54,818 nucleotides of DNA from Treponema sp. (GTDB lineage: Bacteria; Spirochaetota; Spirochaetia; Treponematales; Treponemataceae): the NCBI GenBank assembly GCA_024696155.1, contig JAILHD010000034.1:1-54818 (forward strand), given 5' to 3'. Shown here piece after piece: positions 10,764 to 54,818 of the stretch. A model generated the notes under the pieces. It was not told the DNA's origin and did no database searches. It was given only the letters and a program-made list of their open reading frames with translations. Made by a program: the position numbers and the translations under genes. Positions within the stretch are counted from its first letter, which is position 1, and each line of letters begins with the position of its first letter.

Positions 10764-12359
10764 ATGGGTAAACCAACTGGATTTATGGATTATAAAAGAA
10801 TTGAAAACGGAAGTTTTGAGCCGCTTGAGCGTATAAAGAATTTTAAGGAGTTTCATCCTGTAATGGAGGATGCTAAGCGACGTGAACAGGCAGCCCGCTG
10901 TATGAACTGTGGTGTGCCGATGTGTCAATCGGCAATCCGTCTTGCCGGCATGGTAACAGGTTGTCCACTTCATAATTATATTCCGGAATGGAACGACGCG
11001 CTTTTTAAAGGTCAGTATGATATGGCGGCCTGGAGACTTTTAAAAACTTCAAGTTTTCCGGAATTTACAGGAAGGGTTTGCCCGGCTCTTTGCGAAAAGG
11101 CCTGCAACTGCGGAAATCCTGTGTGTGGTGATGGAGCCGTTACAGTTCACGAAAATGAGCTTTATATTATAGAAAAAGCTTTTGAATCAGGTTACATGAA
11201 GCCTGAAATTCCTGCGGTTCGAAGCGGAAAAAAGATTGCCGTAATTGGTGCGGGGCCTGCAGGCCTTGCTGCTGCAGACTGGCTTAATCGCCGCGGTCAC
11301 AGCGTTACAGTTTACGAGCGCGAAGATAAGGCCGGCGGACTTTTGATGTACGGTATTCCTAACATGAAGCTGGACAAAAAAATTGTTGAACGCCGAATTT
11401 CCTTGATGAAGGCTGAAGGCGTTGAGTTTGTATTCAATGCCGATGTAGGAAAAAATATTTCTGCAGAGCATATTTTACGCCAGTTTGATGCTGTTGCCCT
11501 CTGCTGTGGTGCAAAAAAAGCCCGCTCTCTTACTTCTTCTGGTATTTCCGAACTAAAATCCGAGCGGGAAGGAGCTGCCGGCGGAATGATGTTCGCTGTA
11601 GATTTTCTTAAAGCTGTTACAAAATGTGTAATTGCAACAACCGGCGCCCTTGAAAAAATCGGAATTAATCCTGCAAACAAACAGATTGACCAGATGCTGC
11701 TTCAGGATTTTGGAATTGAAGTTGAAGGAAAACATGTTGTGATTGTAGGTGGTGGTGATACTGGTAATGACTGCTGCGGAACTTCAATTCGTCTTGGTGC
11801 TGCAAGCGTTACTCAGATAGAAATGATGCCTTGCCCTCCAAAAGAGCGTGCTGCAAATAACCCATGGCCACAGTGGCCAAAAGTGCTCAAAACTGATTAC
11901 GGTGCAGAAGAATCAATTGCGGTTTTCGGTCACGATCCTCGCGTTTATGAAACAACTGTAAAAGAAGTAATCAGTAAAGACGGTCATATTACAGCCGTTC
12001 GCACTGTTGAAGTTGAATTTAAAAATATTGATGGAAAGCGCCAGCTTGTAGAACGCCAGGGAACAGAAAAAACACTTCCTTGTGATTTGCTTCTGGTTGC
12101 CGCAGGTTTTACCGGTTGTGAAGAATATACAGCACAGTCCTTTGGTGTTGAACTTGGTCCCCGCGGAACAGTTGCAACTGCGCTTACTGAAGGAGATCAG
12201 AAAATTGAAACTTCTTTCAGTTCAGATACAGGTTATGCCACATCAGTTTCTAAGGTTTTTGCAGCCGGCGACATGCACCGCGGACAGTCTCTTGTAGTCT
12301 GGGCCATTGCCGAAGGCCGCGAATGCGCCCAGGAAATAGATGCATTTTTATTGAAATAG
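10764..12359 (+). CDS. gltD: Glutamate synthase small subunit
   Basis: MGKPTGFMDYKRIENG start with upstream AGGAGAA; AARCMNCGVPMCQ Fe-S and GAGPAGLAAADWLNRRGHSVTVYE FAD motifs. The ORF-track start at 10671 reads through the GC-rich element. Confidence 0.96.
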   Translation: MGKPTGFMDYKRIENGSFEPLERIKNFKEFHPVMEDAKRREQAARCMNCGVPMCQSAIRLAGMVTGCPLHNYIPEWNDALFKGQYDMAAWRLLKTSSFPEFTGRVCPALCEKACNCGNPVCGDGAVTVHENELYIIEKAFESGYMKPEIPAVRSGKKIAVIGAGPAGLAAADWLNRRGHSVTVYEREDKAGGLLMYGIPNMKLDKKIVERRISLMKAEGVEFVFNADVGKNISAEHILRQFDAVALCCGAKKARSLTSSGISELKSEREGAAGGMMFAVDFLKAVTKCVIATTGALEKIGINPANKQIDQMLLQDFGIEVEGKHVVIVGGGDTGNDCCGTSIRLGAASVTQIEMMPCPPKERAANNPWPQWPKVLKTDYGAEESIAVFGHDPRVYETTVKEVISKDGHITAVRTVEVEFKNIDGKRQLVERQGTEKTLPCDLLLVAAGFTGCEEYTAQSFGVELGPRGTVATALTEGDQKIETSFSSDTGYATSVSKVFAAGDMHRGQSLVVWAIAEGRECAQEIDAFLLK

Positions 12360-12379
12360 AATAAATAAGAAAAATAGCG

Positions 12380-12524
12380 CAAGGGAACAGAGTATGCTTC
12401 AAAAACGTTCTGTTTGTGATGGTCGCAAAAGCGACCAGTTCAATAGTTTCTTTACCACAAACAGCATGTAGCGCGATATCGCGCGGTTTTGAAGCATACT
12501 CTGCGACCGGGAGCAATTTTTATT
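12380..12524 (+). ncRNA. Large structured 3'-UTR element, copy 1
   Basis: Nested helices CAGAGTATGCTTC/GAAGCATACTCTG, CTGTTTGTG/CACAAACAG, GGTCGC/GCGACC, GCGCGATATCGCGC; paralogous to 54591-54733 (minus). Confidence 0.6.
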
Positions 12525-16366: not shown

Positions 16367-19093
16367 ATGGCAGAAGAATCAGAAAAAAAGCCAGGATTTG
16401 TAGTGCATAAGAAGGCACAGACTCAGCCAGCAGCAGCCCAGACTCCATCCGCTCCAGAAAAGAAGCGTGTTGTAGTTGTAAGAAAGAATACTTCACAGGG
16501 GCCTGCTCAGGAAGCTTCTAAAAATGATGTTGCTAAGAAGAACCCGGTAAAGGTTGTTGTAAAGAAAGCTGAAGGTCAGGCACCTGCTCAGACAGAAAAG
16601 CCTGCAAAACCAGCTCCACAGGCAGCAGCTCCAGTTACAGAAGCTCCAAAATCTGCAAATACACAGCAGTCTCAGCGCCCACGCACTTTTGAACTTAATC
16701 AGGCTCGTCCTAATGTAAAAGCCGGAAACCTTTCTGACCATGGTCGTCAGAATAACCGCGGAGGATACAACCGCGGTGGTAACGGACAGGGCGGCTACAA
16801 TAATTATAACCGTGGTGGTCAGGGTGGCCAGGGCGGTTATAACCGTAATGGCGGAAACGGCGGTCAGGGCGGCTTTAACGGCGCTCAGGCACGTCAGAGC
16901 TATCAGAACCGTGAACGCGATAACCGCGAAGGTGGTCAGGGCGGCTATAATCGCGGCGGTCAGGGTGGATTCAACCGTAACGGTGGCCAGGGTGGCTTTA
17001 ATCGCGGTGGCCAGGGCGGCTTTAATCGCGGTGGCCAGGGCGGCTTTAACCGTGGTGGAGCTCAGGGAGGCCAGGGTGGATTCAGACCTCGTCCAATGGG
17101 CGGCGGTATGGCCCCAGCTCCTATTCCTGTTGACCAGCGTTCACAGGGTAAAAAGGCCGCTTACAAAGGTAAAAAACAGGTTTATAACCGCAAGGACGAA
17201 GAGCAGTACGATGATAACCTCTTTGAACAGAAGAAGAAGGTTGAAACTCCTGCAAGCGTAGTTCCAAAAGAAATTGAAATTATGGAAACAGTTTCGGTTT
17301 CTGACCTTGCACGCAAAATGAACCTTAAGGCAAGCGAAGTTATTGGAAAACTCATGGGCATGGGTGTAATGGTTACTATTACACAGTCAATTGACCATGA
17401 AACTGCAGAACTTCTTGCAAGCGAATACGGCTGCGAGGTAAAACTTGTAAGCCTTTATGATGAAACTGTAATTGAAAGCGAAAAGGATGACGGCGTAGAA
17501 CTTCTTCCTCGTCCTCCAATTGTTACCGTTATGGGACACGTTGACCACGGTAAGACTAAGACTTTGGATGCTATCCGCCATGCAAACGTTGCAGCTGGCG
17601 AAGCTGGTGGTATTACTCAGTCTATTGGTGCTTACTCAGTTACTACAGAAAAAGGAAAGATTACATTCCTTGATACACCAGGTCACGAAGCATTTACAAT
17701 GATGCGTGCCCGCGGTGCTCAGGTAACAGATATCGTAGTTCTTGTTGTTGCAGCAGATGATGGTGTAATGCCTCAGACTCTGGAAGCTATTGCTCATGCA
17801 AAAGATGCAAAGGTTCCTATTATTGTTGCTGTAAACAAGGTTGATAAGCCTGAAGCAAATCCGGACCGCGTAAAGACTCAGCTTTCTGAACTCGGTCTTA
17901 CTCCTGAAGAGTGGGGTGGAGATACACAGTACGTTCATATTTCTGCACTTAAAAAAGAAGGTATTGACGATCTTTTGGATGCAATCCTCTTACAGGCTGA
18001 AATGCTTGAGCTTAAGGCAAACTTTGAATGTCGTGCTGAAGGTAAGATTCTTGAATCCCGCGTAGATCAGGGACGTGGTGTTGTTTCTACTGTAATCGTA
18101 CAGCGCGGCTGCCTTAAGCAGGGTGACCCTTTTGTTGCCGGAATTTATTCTGGTCGTGTACGTGCTATGTTCGATGACCGCGGTAAACGTATTCAGGAAG
18201 CAGGTCCTTCTACTCCTGTTGAAGTTCTTGGTATGGAAGAAATGCCAAATGCAGGCGATCCATTCCAGGTAACAGAAAGCGAAAAGGATGCACGTGCTAT
18301 TTCTGCAAAACGTCAGGAACTTAAACGCTTTGAAGCTGCTAAGGCTGTTAAAAAGACAACTATCGATACTCTTTATAAAGATATTGAAAATGGCGAAGTT
18401 ACAGAACTTAAGGTTATCATTAAGGCTGATCTTCAGGGATCTGCAGAAGCACTTAAATCTTCTCTTGAGAAGCTTTCAACTCGTGAAATCCGCCTGAACG
18501 TTATTCATTCAAGTGCCGGTGCAATCAACGAATCAGATGTTACTCTGGCTGCTGCTGACTCTAATGCAATCATCATCGGATTTAATGTTCGTCCTACTCC
18601 AAAGGCAAAAAGCCTTGCAGAACAGGAACAGGTTGAAATCCGTAAGTACAATATCATCTACAAGTGTGTTGAAGAAATTCAGGCCGCTATGGAAGGTATG
18701 CTTCAGCCGGATACAAAAGAAGAAGTTATTGGTCAGGTGGAAGTTCGCAACACATTCCGTGTACCAAAGGTTGGCGTAATTGCCGGTTGTATGGTTTCGG
18801 AAGGTATTGTTCGCCGTACAGCAAGTGTTCATCTTGTTCGTGATGGAATTGTTAAGTTTACAGGTAAGATTACTTCCCTCAAACGCTTTAAGGACGACGT
18901 AAAAGAAGTCAGCACAGGCTATGAGTGTGGTATCGGTCTTGAAAACTGGCAGGATATCATGGTTGGCGATAAGCTCGAAATATTCGAAATTGTAGAAGTT
19001 GCTAAGAAACTTGGAAAGACTCTTGCCGAAGAACAGGCTGAACTTGAAAAGAAAGGCTCTTCAGACGCAGATAAAGAAGGAGAAAATTCATAA
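16367..19093 (+). CDS. infB: Translation initiation factor IF-2 with [12 protein letters not shown]-terminal region
   Basis: [31 protein letters not shown]-motifs. Confidence 0.97.
16740..17095 (+). repeat. In-frame repeat tract encoding [16 protein letters not shown]
   Basis: Near-identical 24-bp units (GGTGGCCAGGGCGGCTTTAATCGC) inside infB. Confidence 0.85.
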
Positions 19094-48204: not shown

Positions 48205-49053
48205 TTACTGCAAAAGTCCAAGTACATTCTGTGTCTGTGAATTAGACTGTGCGAGCATTGCTGTACCAGCTTGTGTGAGAATCTGGTTCTTAGTAAACTC
48301 AACCATTTCAGAAGCCATATCTGTATCGCGGATGCGGCTCTCTGCTGACTGAGTATTTTCTGCAGCAATATCTACACCTTTTGCAGCCAACTCAAATCTG
48401 TTCTGGTATGCACCAAGATCTGCTCTCTGTTTTGTTACTGTAGTCAAAGCAGCATCAACAGCAGCAAGAGTCATGTTTGCATCCTCAGGTGTTGAGATGG
48501 TAATCTGTTCATCGCCACCCTGCATACCCTTCAAACCAAGAGCTGTAGCAGTCATAGTACCAATGAACACACGTGCATTCTGGTCAACATTTGCACCAAT
48601 CTGGAACTGCATTACTGACTGACCTTCCTGTGCAAAGCGTCCAGTCAACATATTCATACCGTTGAACTGAGCCTGACTTGCAATGCGGTCAACTTCAGCA
48701 ACGAGCTGTGATACTTCTACCTGAATCTGCATGCGATCTTCATCGCTGTAGATACCGTTAGCAGACTGTACTGCAAGTTCACGAACACGCTGAAGAATGT
48801 CTGTAGTTTCTGTTAAATAACCTTCAGTTGTCTGAATGAAAGCAACTCCATTCGAAATGTTCTTACTTGCCTGGTTAAGTCCGCGAATCTGGCTTCTCAT
48901 TTTTTCTGATACTGCCAGACCTGAAGCATCGTCTCCGGCGCGATTGATGCGTTCACCAGAAGAAAGTTTCTCCATGTTCTTCATGATTGAATCATTAGAA
49001 ATGTTCAATACACGATCAGCATAGAGCGAACTCATATTGTGATTAATAATCAT
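48205..49053 (-). CDS. Flagellin (FlaB-type core)
   Basis: [18 protein letters not shown]...[49 protein letters not shown]. Confidence 0.96.
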
Positions 49054-49523: not shown

Positions 49524-50384
49524 CTATCTCAATAAGCTGAGAACATTCTGACTCTGTGAGTTTGCCTGTGCAAGCATAGCTGTTCCAGCCTGCATCAATA
49601 CAGAGTTCTTTGTGAATTCAACCATCTGACTTGCCATATCTGTATCACGGATGCGTGATTCAGAAGCCTGTGTATTTTCAGCTGCAATATCCAAGCCTCT
49701 TACAGTCATTTCAAGACGGTTCTGATAAGCACCAAGGTCAGCACGCTGTTTGTTGATCTTCTTAAGTGCTTCATCTACTGTTCCGATAGCACGGTTGGCA
49801 TCTTCCGGTGTGGCAAGTGTAATTTTTTCGCCAGTTCCGATTTCGCGGATTCCAAGAGCATCAGCTGTCATTGTACCGATGTAAACCTGTACGCGCTGAT
49901 CCATGTTAGCACCAATATGGAACCACATAGAAGCAGTAACTGAGTTTTCTCCCAAAGCCTGTGCGAAACGTCCTGTAAGCATGTTCATGCCGTTGAACTG
50001 AGCAGAACTTGCAATACGATCAACTTCAGATACGAGAGCAGAAATTTCTACCTGAATCTGCATGCGGTCTTCAGAAGAGTAGATACCGTTTGAAGACTGA
50101 ACAGCAAGTTCACGGATACGCTGCATGATGTCTGTTGTTTCCTGCAAATAGCCTTCAGTTGTCTGAATAAAGCTGATGCCGTTCTGGGCATTTCTAGAAG
50201 CCTGATTCAAACCTCTGATCTGGCTGCGCATCTTTTCAGATACTGCAAGACCTGAAGCATCATCACCTGCACGATTGATTCTTTCTCCTGATGAGAGTTT
50301 CTCCATGTCTTTTGTGAAACTTACACCAGTAACTCCGAGCTGACGGTTGGCAAACATTGCCGACATGTTGTGGTTGATAACCAT
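49524..50384 (-). CDS. Flagellin (FlaB-type core)
   Basis: [17 protein letters not shown]...[45 protein letters not shown] in front of ATG 50384. Confidence 0.96.
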
Positions 50385-53601: not shown

Positions 53602-54588
53602 ATGAAACAAATTCTGGATTCTGATGTAGAAGCTTTAAAATCATTTATACAAAATCATGACTTTTTCTTTGTAATCGGGCATAAAGAGCCTGATGGAGAT
53701 TGTATGTCCAGCTGTCTTGGTGCTGCTGCAATTCTTGACGGTTTTAATAAACGATATCAGCTGCTTTCTGCAGGACCATTTAAAAGAAATGAAGTTCGCC
53801 GCTTTGAAGAGAAGTTTTCTGATATGATGGAATTTCTGGATGATAATGACAGAAAAAAGACGGGGCTTATAATTGTTGACTGTTCTGAATTGAGCCGTCT
53901 TGGAGAGATTGACGGGGATTTTGAAGGGCTTGATATTTTTGTAATTGATCACCATAAAACTTCGGGGCTTCCTGAAGGTGCGCAGGGCTTTATTGATTCT
54001 GATTCTCCTGCCTGTGCCTATATTGTTCAGAACTTTTATGAGCGTTTGATTGGCCCTGTGCCAGAAGAGCTTGCAAAAAATCTTTTCTTTGGACTTTGTA
54101 CGGATACGGGATTTTTCCGCTTTGTAAGTTCTAAGGGGGCTGATGTGTTTGATGGTGCTTCTCGGCTTGTAAAGGCTGGGGCGGATCCTAGAAAAACTTA
54201 TAATTTGATTAATTCTGGAAAGCCGTATTCAACCCGTAAGCTTTTGGGAACTCTTTTGATGAAGGCTGAGCGCTATCTTGAAGGTAAGCTTGTTATTACT
54301 ACTGAAAGTCTTGAAGATACTAAAAAATATGGTCTTGAAGGCCGTGATTCTGATGCGCTTTATCAGCTTTTTTTGGCAACAGAGGGCGTGCAGGCGGTGG
54401 TTTTCTTGCGTCAGGATACAGAAACAACCTGTACCGGCGGTTTCCGCTCGCTGGAAGAAATTGATGTTTCGCAGGTTGCGGCAAAATTTGGGGGCGGCGG
54501 ACACAAAAATGCCAGTGGTATGAGCTGTAATGGTAAGATTGAGACGCTTTTGCCACAAATTGTGAAAGAGTTCGCAAGAATTATGTAA
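53602..54588 (+). CDS. DHH/DHHA1 phosphoesterase (NrnA-like)
   Basis: IGHKEPDGDCMSS, VIDHHKT, C-terminal FGGGGHKNASG. Confidence 0.92.
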   Translation: MKQILDSDVEALKSFIQNHDFFFVIGHKEPDGDCMSSCLGAAAILDGFNKRYQLLSAGPFKRNEVRRFEEKFSDMMEFLDDNDRKKTGLIIVDCSELSRLGEIDGDFEGLDIFVIDHHKTSGLPEGAQGFIDSDSPACAYIVQNFYERLIGPVPEELAKNLFFGLCTDTGFFRFVSSKGADVFDGASRLVKAGADPRKTYNLINSGKPYSTRKLLGTLLMKAERYLEGKLVITTESLEDTKKYGLEGRDSDALYQLFLATEGVQAVVFLRQDTETTCTGGFRSLEEIDVSQVAAKFGGGGHKNASGMSCNGKIETLLPQIVKEFARIM

Positions 54589-54590
54589 AT

Positions 54591-54733
54591 AAAAATGACT
54601 CCCGGTCGCGTAGTGTGTGGCAAAACCGCGCGATAACGCGCTACACGCTGATTGTTGCAAAGAAACTATTTAATTGACCGCTCTCGCGGTCTAAACAATC
54701 AGAGTGTTTTTGCCCCACACTCCGCTCCCTAGC
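54591..54733 (-). ncRNA. Large structured 3'-UTR element, copy 2
   Basis: Minus-strand homolog of 12380-12524 with compensatory changes in stems CTGATTGTT/AACAATCAG and GACCGC/GCGGTC. Confidence 0.6.
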
Positions 54734-54743
54734 GTCTTTTTTT

Positions 54744-54818
54744 CTACCTTAATTCAGCGCCTTTTATGAATGTTTGAGCGTATTCAATAAGTTCTGCGAC
54801 CTCAGAGTCGGTGTAGGG
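54744..54818 (-). CDS. C-terminal end of a CDS running off the window
   Basis: Minus frame PYTDSEVAELIEYAQTFIKGAELR* open to the window edge. Confidence 0.5.
   Translation of the reverse strand, partial: PYTDSEVAELIEYAQTFIKGAELR

Follow-up and report, generated by a model that had tools for sequence, protein, structure and literature searches.

What is the multi-helix stretch that follows gltD in this Treponema genome, and why does it recur on the opposite strand with its helices kept and its paired bases changed? The original prediction offered two answers, selection on RNA structure and a structured mobile repeat. Analysis of the window (the whole 54,818-nucleotide stretch) and of related genomes supported both, in different species.

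Architecture of the element in the window

The four helices predicted at 12380-12524 (P1, P2, P3, and P4) were found exactly where they had been placed, but the element proved larger. An outer stem was added, its arms pairing with one A·A mismatch and enclosing a basal purine-rich internal loop (GCRAGGGAG/GACCGGGAG), and P4 turned out to be the third arm at the P1/P2 junction. The core is a three-way junction of P1, the P2 arm carrying P3, and the P4 arm, with an extra ACAY/RTGT helix immediately 5' of P2 (Table 1). Compared with dinucleotide shuffles, the folds of copies 1 and 2 reached z = -8.3 and z = -7.5, respectively. A 24-base core motif occurred exactly twice in the window, where 0 occurrences were expected.

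Copy 1 lies downstream of gltD, as predicted, starting about 11-12 nt past the stop (the ORF ends at 12359) and not about 20 nt. The gltD assignment was given by a profile match (TIGR01317, E = 7e-175), and profile matches likewise backed both the ABC-F gene that follows copy 1 and the DHH-type (NrnA-like) gene beside copy 2. The minus-strand copy 2, which had been placed at 54591-54733, kept all helices while changing paired bases, and its CM match spanned 54588-54741. It is flanked by the stop TAA (54586-54588) of the plus-strand DHH-family gene and the apparent stop TAG (54744-54746) of a converging minus-strand gene. Elsewhere, the window holds two paralogous stretches (48627-48986 and 49958-50317; 1331 bp apart, 78-80% identical) and glycine-rich coding repeats (GGTGGCCAGGGCGGCTTTAAC) at 16814-17082 within a 908-aa ORF.

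Table 1. Parts of the element and their positions in the window
Feature	Positions	Strand	Support
Copy 1, whole element (outer A-tract/T-tract stem, basal internal loop, P1, P2/P3 arm, P4 arm)	12371..12524	+	CM match 161 bits; fold z = -8.3
Outer stem 5' arm AAAAATAGC; T-tract tail on minus strand	12370..12378	+	Sequence; family covariation in outer-stem columns (85% of cells paired)
Outer stem 3' arm GCAATTTTT; terminator-like U-tract on plus strand	12513..12521	+	Sequence; 83/92 clade copies with at least 5 T in 8 nt
Basal internal loop 5' side (GCAAGGGAA)	12379..12387	+	Conserved block in family alignment
Basal internal loop 3' side (CGACCGGGA)	12504..12512	+	Conserved block in family alignment
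P1 5' arm, continuing as AAAA paired with 3' TTTT	12388..12400	+	P1 plus base: double changes at 15/19 pairs
P1 3' arm	12491..12503	+	P1 plus base: double changes at 15/19 pairs
P2 5' arm	12410..12418	+	P2 helix: double changes at 12/14 pairs, 98% paired
P2 3' arm	12456..12464	+	P2 helix: double changes at 12/14 pairs, 98% paired
P3 hairpin GGTCGC-AAAA-GCGACC, arms 12421-12426/12431-12436	12421..12436	+	Sequence; covariation
Conserved unpaired bulge AATAGTTTCTTT, between P3 and P2 3' arm	12442..12453	+	ATAGTTWC nearly invariant, 39 copies
P4 hairpin GCGCG-ATAT-CGCGC, arms 12471-12475/12480-12484	12471..12484	+	99.5% of cells paired; loop-closing pair G-C/A-U/C-G
Copy 2, whole element	54588..54741	-	CM match 160 bits; sequence
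Copy 2 P3 hairpin GACCGC-GAGA-GCGGTC, compensated versus copy 1	54676..54691	-	Sequence

Family size, covariation, and distribution

The two copies first noticed were not a mere pair but belong to a family represented at least 35 times in the genome of the window (G000; BLAST, assembly of 2.40 Mb, 86% complete). An alignment of 39 copies gave a consensus of 47 pairs, 35 of which showed double changes. Paired cells made up 95.6% of the alignment versus 79.6% in shuffles, a level reached by 0 of 500 shuffles, and 291 cells were double-changed versus 79 in shuffles. When partners were slid by 1-3 columns as a control, pairing was only 30-47%. Few single-sided intermediates were found among covarying pairs. 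Unpaired blocks were conserved across all lineages, the mobile form described below included, and on the plus strand G·U outnumbered A·C about 3:1 (118 vs 40). Pairing was thus kept with massive compensation, as expected of selection on RNA structure, and it persisted where transposon ends are gone.

Part of the covariation was block replacement, as P2 and P3 were swapped jointly at orthologous sites while their flanks were unchanged; gene conversion or hairpin template switching could be the source. Orthologous pairs were bimodal, being either near-identical or different at many coordinated pairs, a pattern that, judged from the sequences, indicates replacement by conversion or re-insertion plus point-by-point compensation.

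The CM search over spirochaetes that had been suggested found the family in 116 of the 200 genomes searched in the genus. In a phylum-wide CM sample, it was present in 28 of 393 genomes and 3 of 167 genera, all within one taxonomic family; the named matches were Treponema and other spirochaete genomes, many of them from the rumen. Loss was under-counted, because CM and BLAST searches detect intact cores only. In Rfam, only tRNAs were matched in the window at the gathering threshold and the element had no match; at E ≤ 10, no family rose above threshold at the element, giving no known riboswitch, HEARO, sRNA, or the like. The element was absent from the phage records, plasmid records, and viral contigs searched, giving no hint that it is a feature of phages or plasmids, and our literature searches found no description of the repeat in Treponema.

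A mobile form in other Treponema

The structured mobile repeat was encountered in other species, where the same core is best described as a recently mobile ISAs1-type MITE. There, the core sits inside a unit of about 215 bp with ends CAGGGC(AAA/TTC)CGCATTATAAA and target duplications of about 10 bp, present in many near-identical copies in G187, G207, G137, G213, G010, and other genomes. We took CAGGG ends with 8-10-bp duplications to be ISAs1-like, and this assumption was then tested. TIRs matching an ISAs1-family IS (20-bp ends) were found in G187, G207, G213, G137, G039, and G010, and TSDs of about 8-10 bp were exemplified by GGTAGAGATT (L223), CCGTGCGGAA (L097), and CTGAATTTTA (L094). The form was called ISAs1-type because an ISAs1-family transposase of G137 (384 aa; NF033564, E = 8.6e-104), located through the ISAs1-associated domain, bears the matching inverted repeat: its stop codon overlaps TCTATAATGCGTTTGCCCTG, which is the MITE inverted repeat, and a degraded partner lies upstream.

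A pair of ISAs1-type ends 1.6 kb apart in G187 (L218; G187:C53:10952-12563) was ruled out as an autonomous IS, as it encloses a 416-aa beta-lactamase-fold (PF00144) ORF and no transposase; it could represent gene capture by a MITE pair. In the same genome, several MITE cores (L219, L220, L221) carried a palindromic repeat of about 110 nt (GAGTTTTGGCG...GGCTCGTGC) in or near the P3 loop, a hairpin-in-hairpin nesting. G010 held at least 21 scored near-identical copies (166 first-look candidates), many of them at the ends of contigs, which looks like a very recent burst that fragments the assembly.

Retention without ends in the window's clade

In the window's clade, which comprises G000 and its relatives G004, G056, G057, and G169, the ends were largely gone. 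The match to the MITE ends in the flanks was 19-20/20 in the young genomes, about 14/20 in G040/G041, and about 11/20 in the window's clade (background 10.7). The flanks of the window copies stood at background, without TIRs, and no TSD was recognised; the whole G000 genome gave a single weak TIR, and ISAs1-type ends remained on at least one copy in G004, where ends were perfect or eroded. The ISAs1-associated transposase domain PF13808 had 0 matches in the five clade genomes. Despite the absent ends, the cores were intact (124-179 bits by CM). From this erosion series of the ends, we infer that the direction was probably from MITE to terminator.

Twenty orthologous sites among the five genomes carried the element in the same orientation with both flanks homologous, and the element at the copy 1 site was common to G056. 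The element was inverted in place in 16 of 47 orthologous site pairs and had the same orientation in the remaining 31.

Placement at gene ends

Among the five clade genomes, 38 of 79 copies lay between convergent genes versus 20 of 146 other gaps at the same loci (Fisher p = 5e-8), and divergent-gene gaps were depleted of the element (p = 9e-5); genes were called as ORFs of at least 300 nt, so single calls may err, but the contrast is large. Gene 3' ends made up 109 of 158 flanks, at a median distance of 16 nt. Between tandem genes, the element was on the same strand as the genes in 20 cases and on the opposite strand in 13. The idea that copies always sit just 3' of same-strand stops failed in that form: enrichment near 3' ends was strong, but the commonest placement was between convergent genes, and tandem copies were on either strand. 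The random orientation and placement, with decay, expected of inert MITEs agreed with the data in one respect, orientation not being fixed, while placement was strongly enriched at 3' ends and cores were intact. An orientation-indifferent 3'-end element is more likely than a strand-specific sRNA derived from the 3' end, because orthologous copies were often inverted in place and tandem copies occurred on either strand.

Young MITE copies in the other species were never between convergent genes (0 of 20) and were flanked mostly by gene starts. The clade placement is therefore not a simple by-product of ISAs1 insertion and needs selective retention or another route.

The stem was followed by at least 5 T in 8 nt in 83 of 92 clade copies, and T-tracts were present on both strands in 60 of 92. 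The A-tract/T-tract stem that carries the core is particular to each locus. A standard terminator scan gave no canonical match at either window copy, because the loop is far too long. Of the features of intrinsic terminators, the element has the T-tract directly after the stem; a compact GC hairpin with a short loop is replaced by a junction of about 130 nt. The outer GC stem measures only 2-5 bp and is topped by a large internal loop, which counts against a terminator reading. The element is accordingly not filed as a canonical terminator, and it may work like one.

Exchange of the element at orthologous sites

One site (L010) held the element in G000 and G057, the element inverted in place on the same outer stem in G056, a plain hairpin (AAAAAAACAGCTTTCAG-TTGA-CTGAAAGCTGTTTTTTT) forming a plain terminator on the same basal stem in G169, and, in G004, a long hairpin that is unrelated to the element and has A/T tracts of its own. 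Plain terminators occupied the L024 and L021 sites in some relatives. At the copy 2 site, G056 carried the element with an added hairpin in P4, and G057 carried it inverted. The G169 plain terminator could be an ancestral empty site, but its loop-side GACTGAAAGCTG (CGACTGGAAGCCC at another site) resembles the 3' end of the element, and it may instead be a collapsed element.

Other hairpins were dispersed in these genomes. A second family (CGCGGGTCCCAGCGAYGGC...GCCTGCGTCCCACG) of about 75-110 nt, lying inside A-tract/T-tract stems (L204, L212, L201, L202 in G004, G169, and G056), occupied some element-bearing orthologous sites, with 5-18 matches per relative and 0 in G000. Further long-hairpin types at gene ends (L200 in G057, L203 in G004, L193 in G056, and L206/L207) had different tops and carried the element's basal motif GCGNGAG.GGAG / CGGRAGC, as if tops had been swapped on a common base.

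Interpretation and alternative explanations

We consider it probable, though well short of certain, that the element in the window's clade is an ISAs1-type MITE core that lost its ends and was co-opted as a bidirectional intrinsic terminator or mRNA 3'-end structure. Transcripts arriving from either side would fold the outer A-tract:T-tract stem, capped by the compact three-way junction, RNA polymerase would pause at the U-tract and then release, and the stable folded 3' end may also hinder 3'->5' exonucleases. As stem and T-tract are present on both strands, in-place inversion would be tolerated and one element could serve two converging genes. This reading is the most economical because it explains the loss of ends with the fold kept, the A/T tracts on two strands, the convergent placement, the tolerance of inversion, and the exchange with plain hairpins. 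The conservation of the junction, the AATAGTTWCTTT bulge, and the basal GA-rich loop, together with the G·U excess, is unneeded for termination and lies beyond the terminator account; the conserved unpaired blocks and the G·U excess suggest either a role for the RNA of that strand or a constraint inherited from the mobile phase.

These features would be expected if the element were a functional RNA beyond a terminator, with the T-tract stem as its end only and the junction, bulge, and basal loop bound by a host protein, or if it were a 3'-end processing or stability element or a 3'-derived sRNA. The fold is more elaborate than a terminator needs, and the unpaired blocks are conserved even in the MITE form. 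We hold this to be unlikely in view of the in-place inversions and the weak strand preference at tandem genes; moreover, plain or other long hairpins substitute at the same sites, so no locus seems to need the element's RNA.

Inert MITE debris, in which only the transposon core is structured, the fold serves transposition or is irrelevant, and the window copies are dead insertions, would account for the high copy number and the unfixed orientation, and in G187, G207, and G213 this core occurs as a young MITE with TSDs, as it also does, by its ends, in G010. It is improbable, and already largely refuted for the window's clade, where copies without recognisable ends or PF13808 keep their cores at shared orthologous sites and placement is sharply unlike that of young copies.

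We give little credence to a process acting on DNA only, in which hairpin template switching and gene conversion keep long inverted repeats paired and covariation overstates selection. The bimodal orthologous pairs, the P2/P3 blocks swapped as units with few single-sided intermediates, and the collapsed hairpins, which resemble fold-back products of the element's 3' end, all fit such a process; perfecting would, however, erase the mismatches, internal loops, and bulge that are maintained instead, and the unpaired blocks are as conserved as the helices. Dispersed folded elements near gene ends, in-place inversion, and GTAG before P4 in many copies would suit hairpins of the integron attC or REP/RAYT kind that move as folded single-stranded DNA. 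This reading is very improbable, as GTAG is not conserved (variants GTCTAG and GTCAAG), the element measures 154 nt against the 20-40 bp given for REPs in PMC3733652, and the DDE-type ends and TSDs of the mobile form fit instead.

An extension of the co-opted terminator is more tentative, and we regard it as possible but doubtful: a new structured RNA module, dispersed by ISAs1 MITEs, would have been domesticated throughout the genome in rumen Treponema as a bidirectional 3'-end cassette that can be exchanged and flipped. A host factor, whether polymerase, nuclease, or RNA-binding protein, would bind its junction and bulge, and the module would compete with other long-hairpin families for gene-end sites.

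Relation to known repeats and significance

The element resembles bcr1 and related bcr repeats from the Bacillus cereus group (Okstad 2004 and Kristoffersen 2011, both cited in PMC6542083), which are likewise interspersed, clade-restricted repeats of about 150-170 nt whose fold is conserved, which show features of mobile elements, and which number in the tens per genome (PMC6542083, PMC2267715). However, the mobility of bcr repeats is linked to a TTTAT motif and resembles site-specific recombination (PMC6542083), whereas the Treponema mobile form has ISAs1-type ends and TSDs of about 10 bp, and the Treponema element has T-tract stems, convergent-gene placement, and no Rfam match. Its restriction to one spirochaete family and its ISAs1-type ends set it apart from bcr1 by description. 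Like DDE (ISAs1-family) MITEs, the mobile copies are short, TIR-bounded, TSD-flanked, and transposase-less, and they have an end sequence in common with an ISAs1-family IS in a related genome; unlike them, the Treponema core is a highly conserved structured module that persists without ends in the window's clade. REPs and BIMEs are similarly extragenic, palindromic, and IS-associated (PMC1525189, PMC3733652), but the Treponema element is much larger, has three arms and no conserved GTAG, and goes with a different transposase class; its length and variable GTAG placed it outside the GTAG class of REPs.

Bidirectional intrinsic terminators share the stem, T-tracts on both strands, convergent genes, and compensated pairs, and compensatory evolution has been described in those of convergent genes in B. 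cereus (PMC5381666). Ordinary terminators are short hairpins particular to their locus, whereas copies of the element form one homologous family of 150 nt in which a three-way junction takes the place of the loop. By analogy, a bidirectional intrinsic terminator would be the closest counterpart of the element in its working, and in size, copy number, and fold the element resembles bcr1-type repeats.

If the co-option reading is true, this case would document unusually well how transposon debris can turn into general machinery of gene expression, with the same module seen as a young mobile element, a decaying one, and an end-less structured gene-end signal at orthologous sites. The natural series at a single locus (element, inverted element, plain hairpin, and another family) would provide a test of terminator evolution, and it would also allow one to ask whether complex folds above a terminator stem affect termination or mRNA stability.
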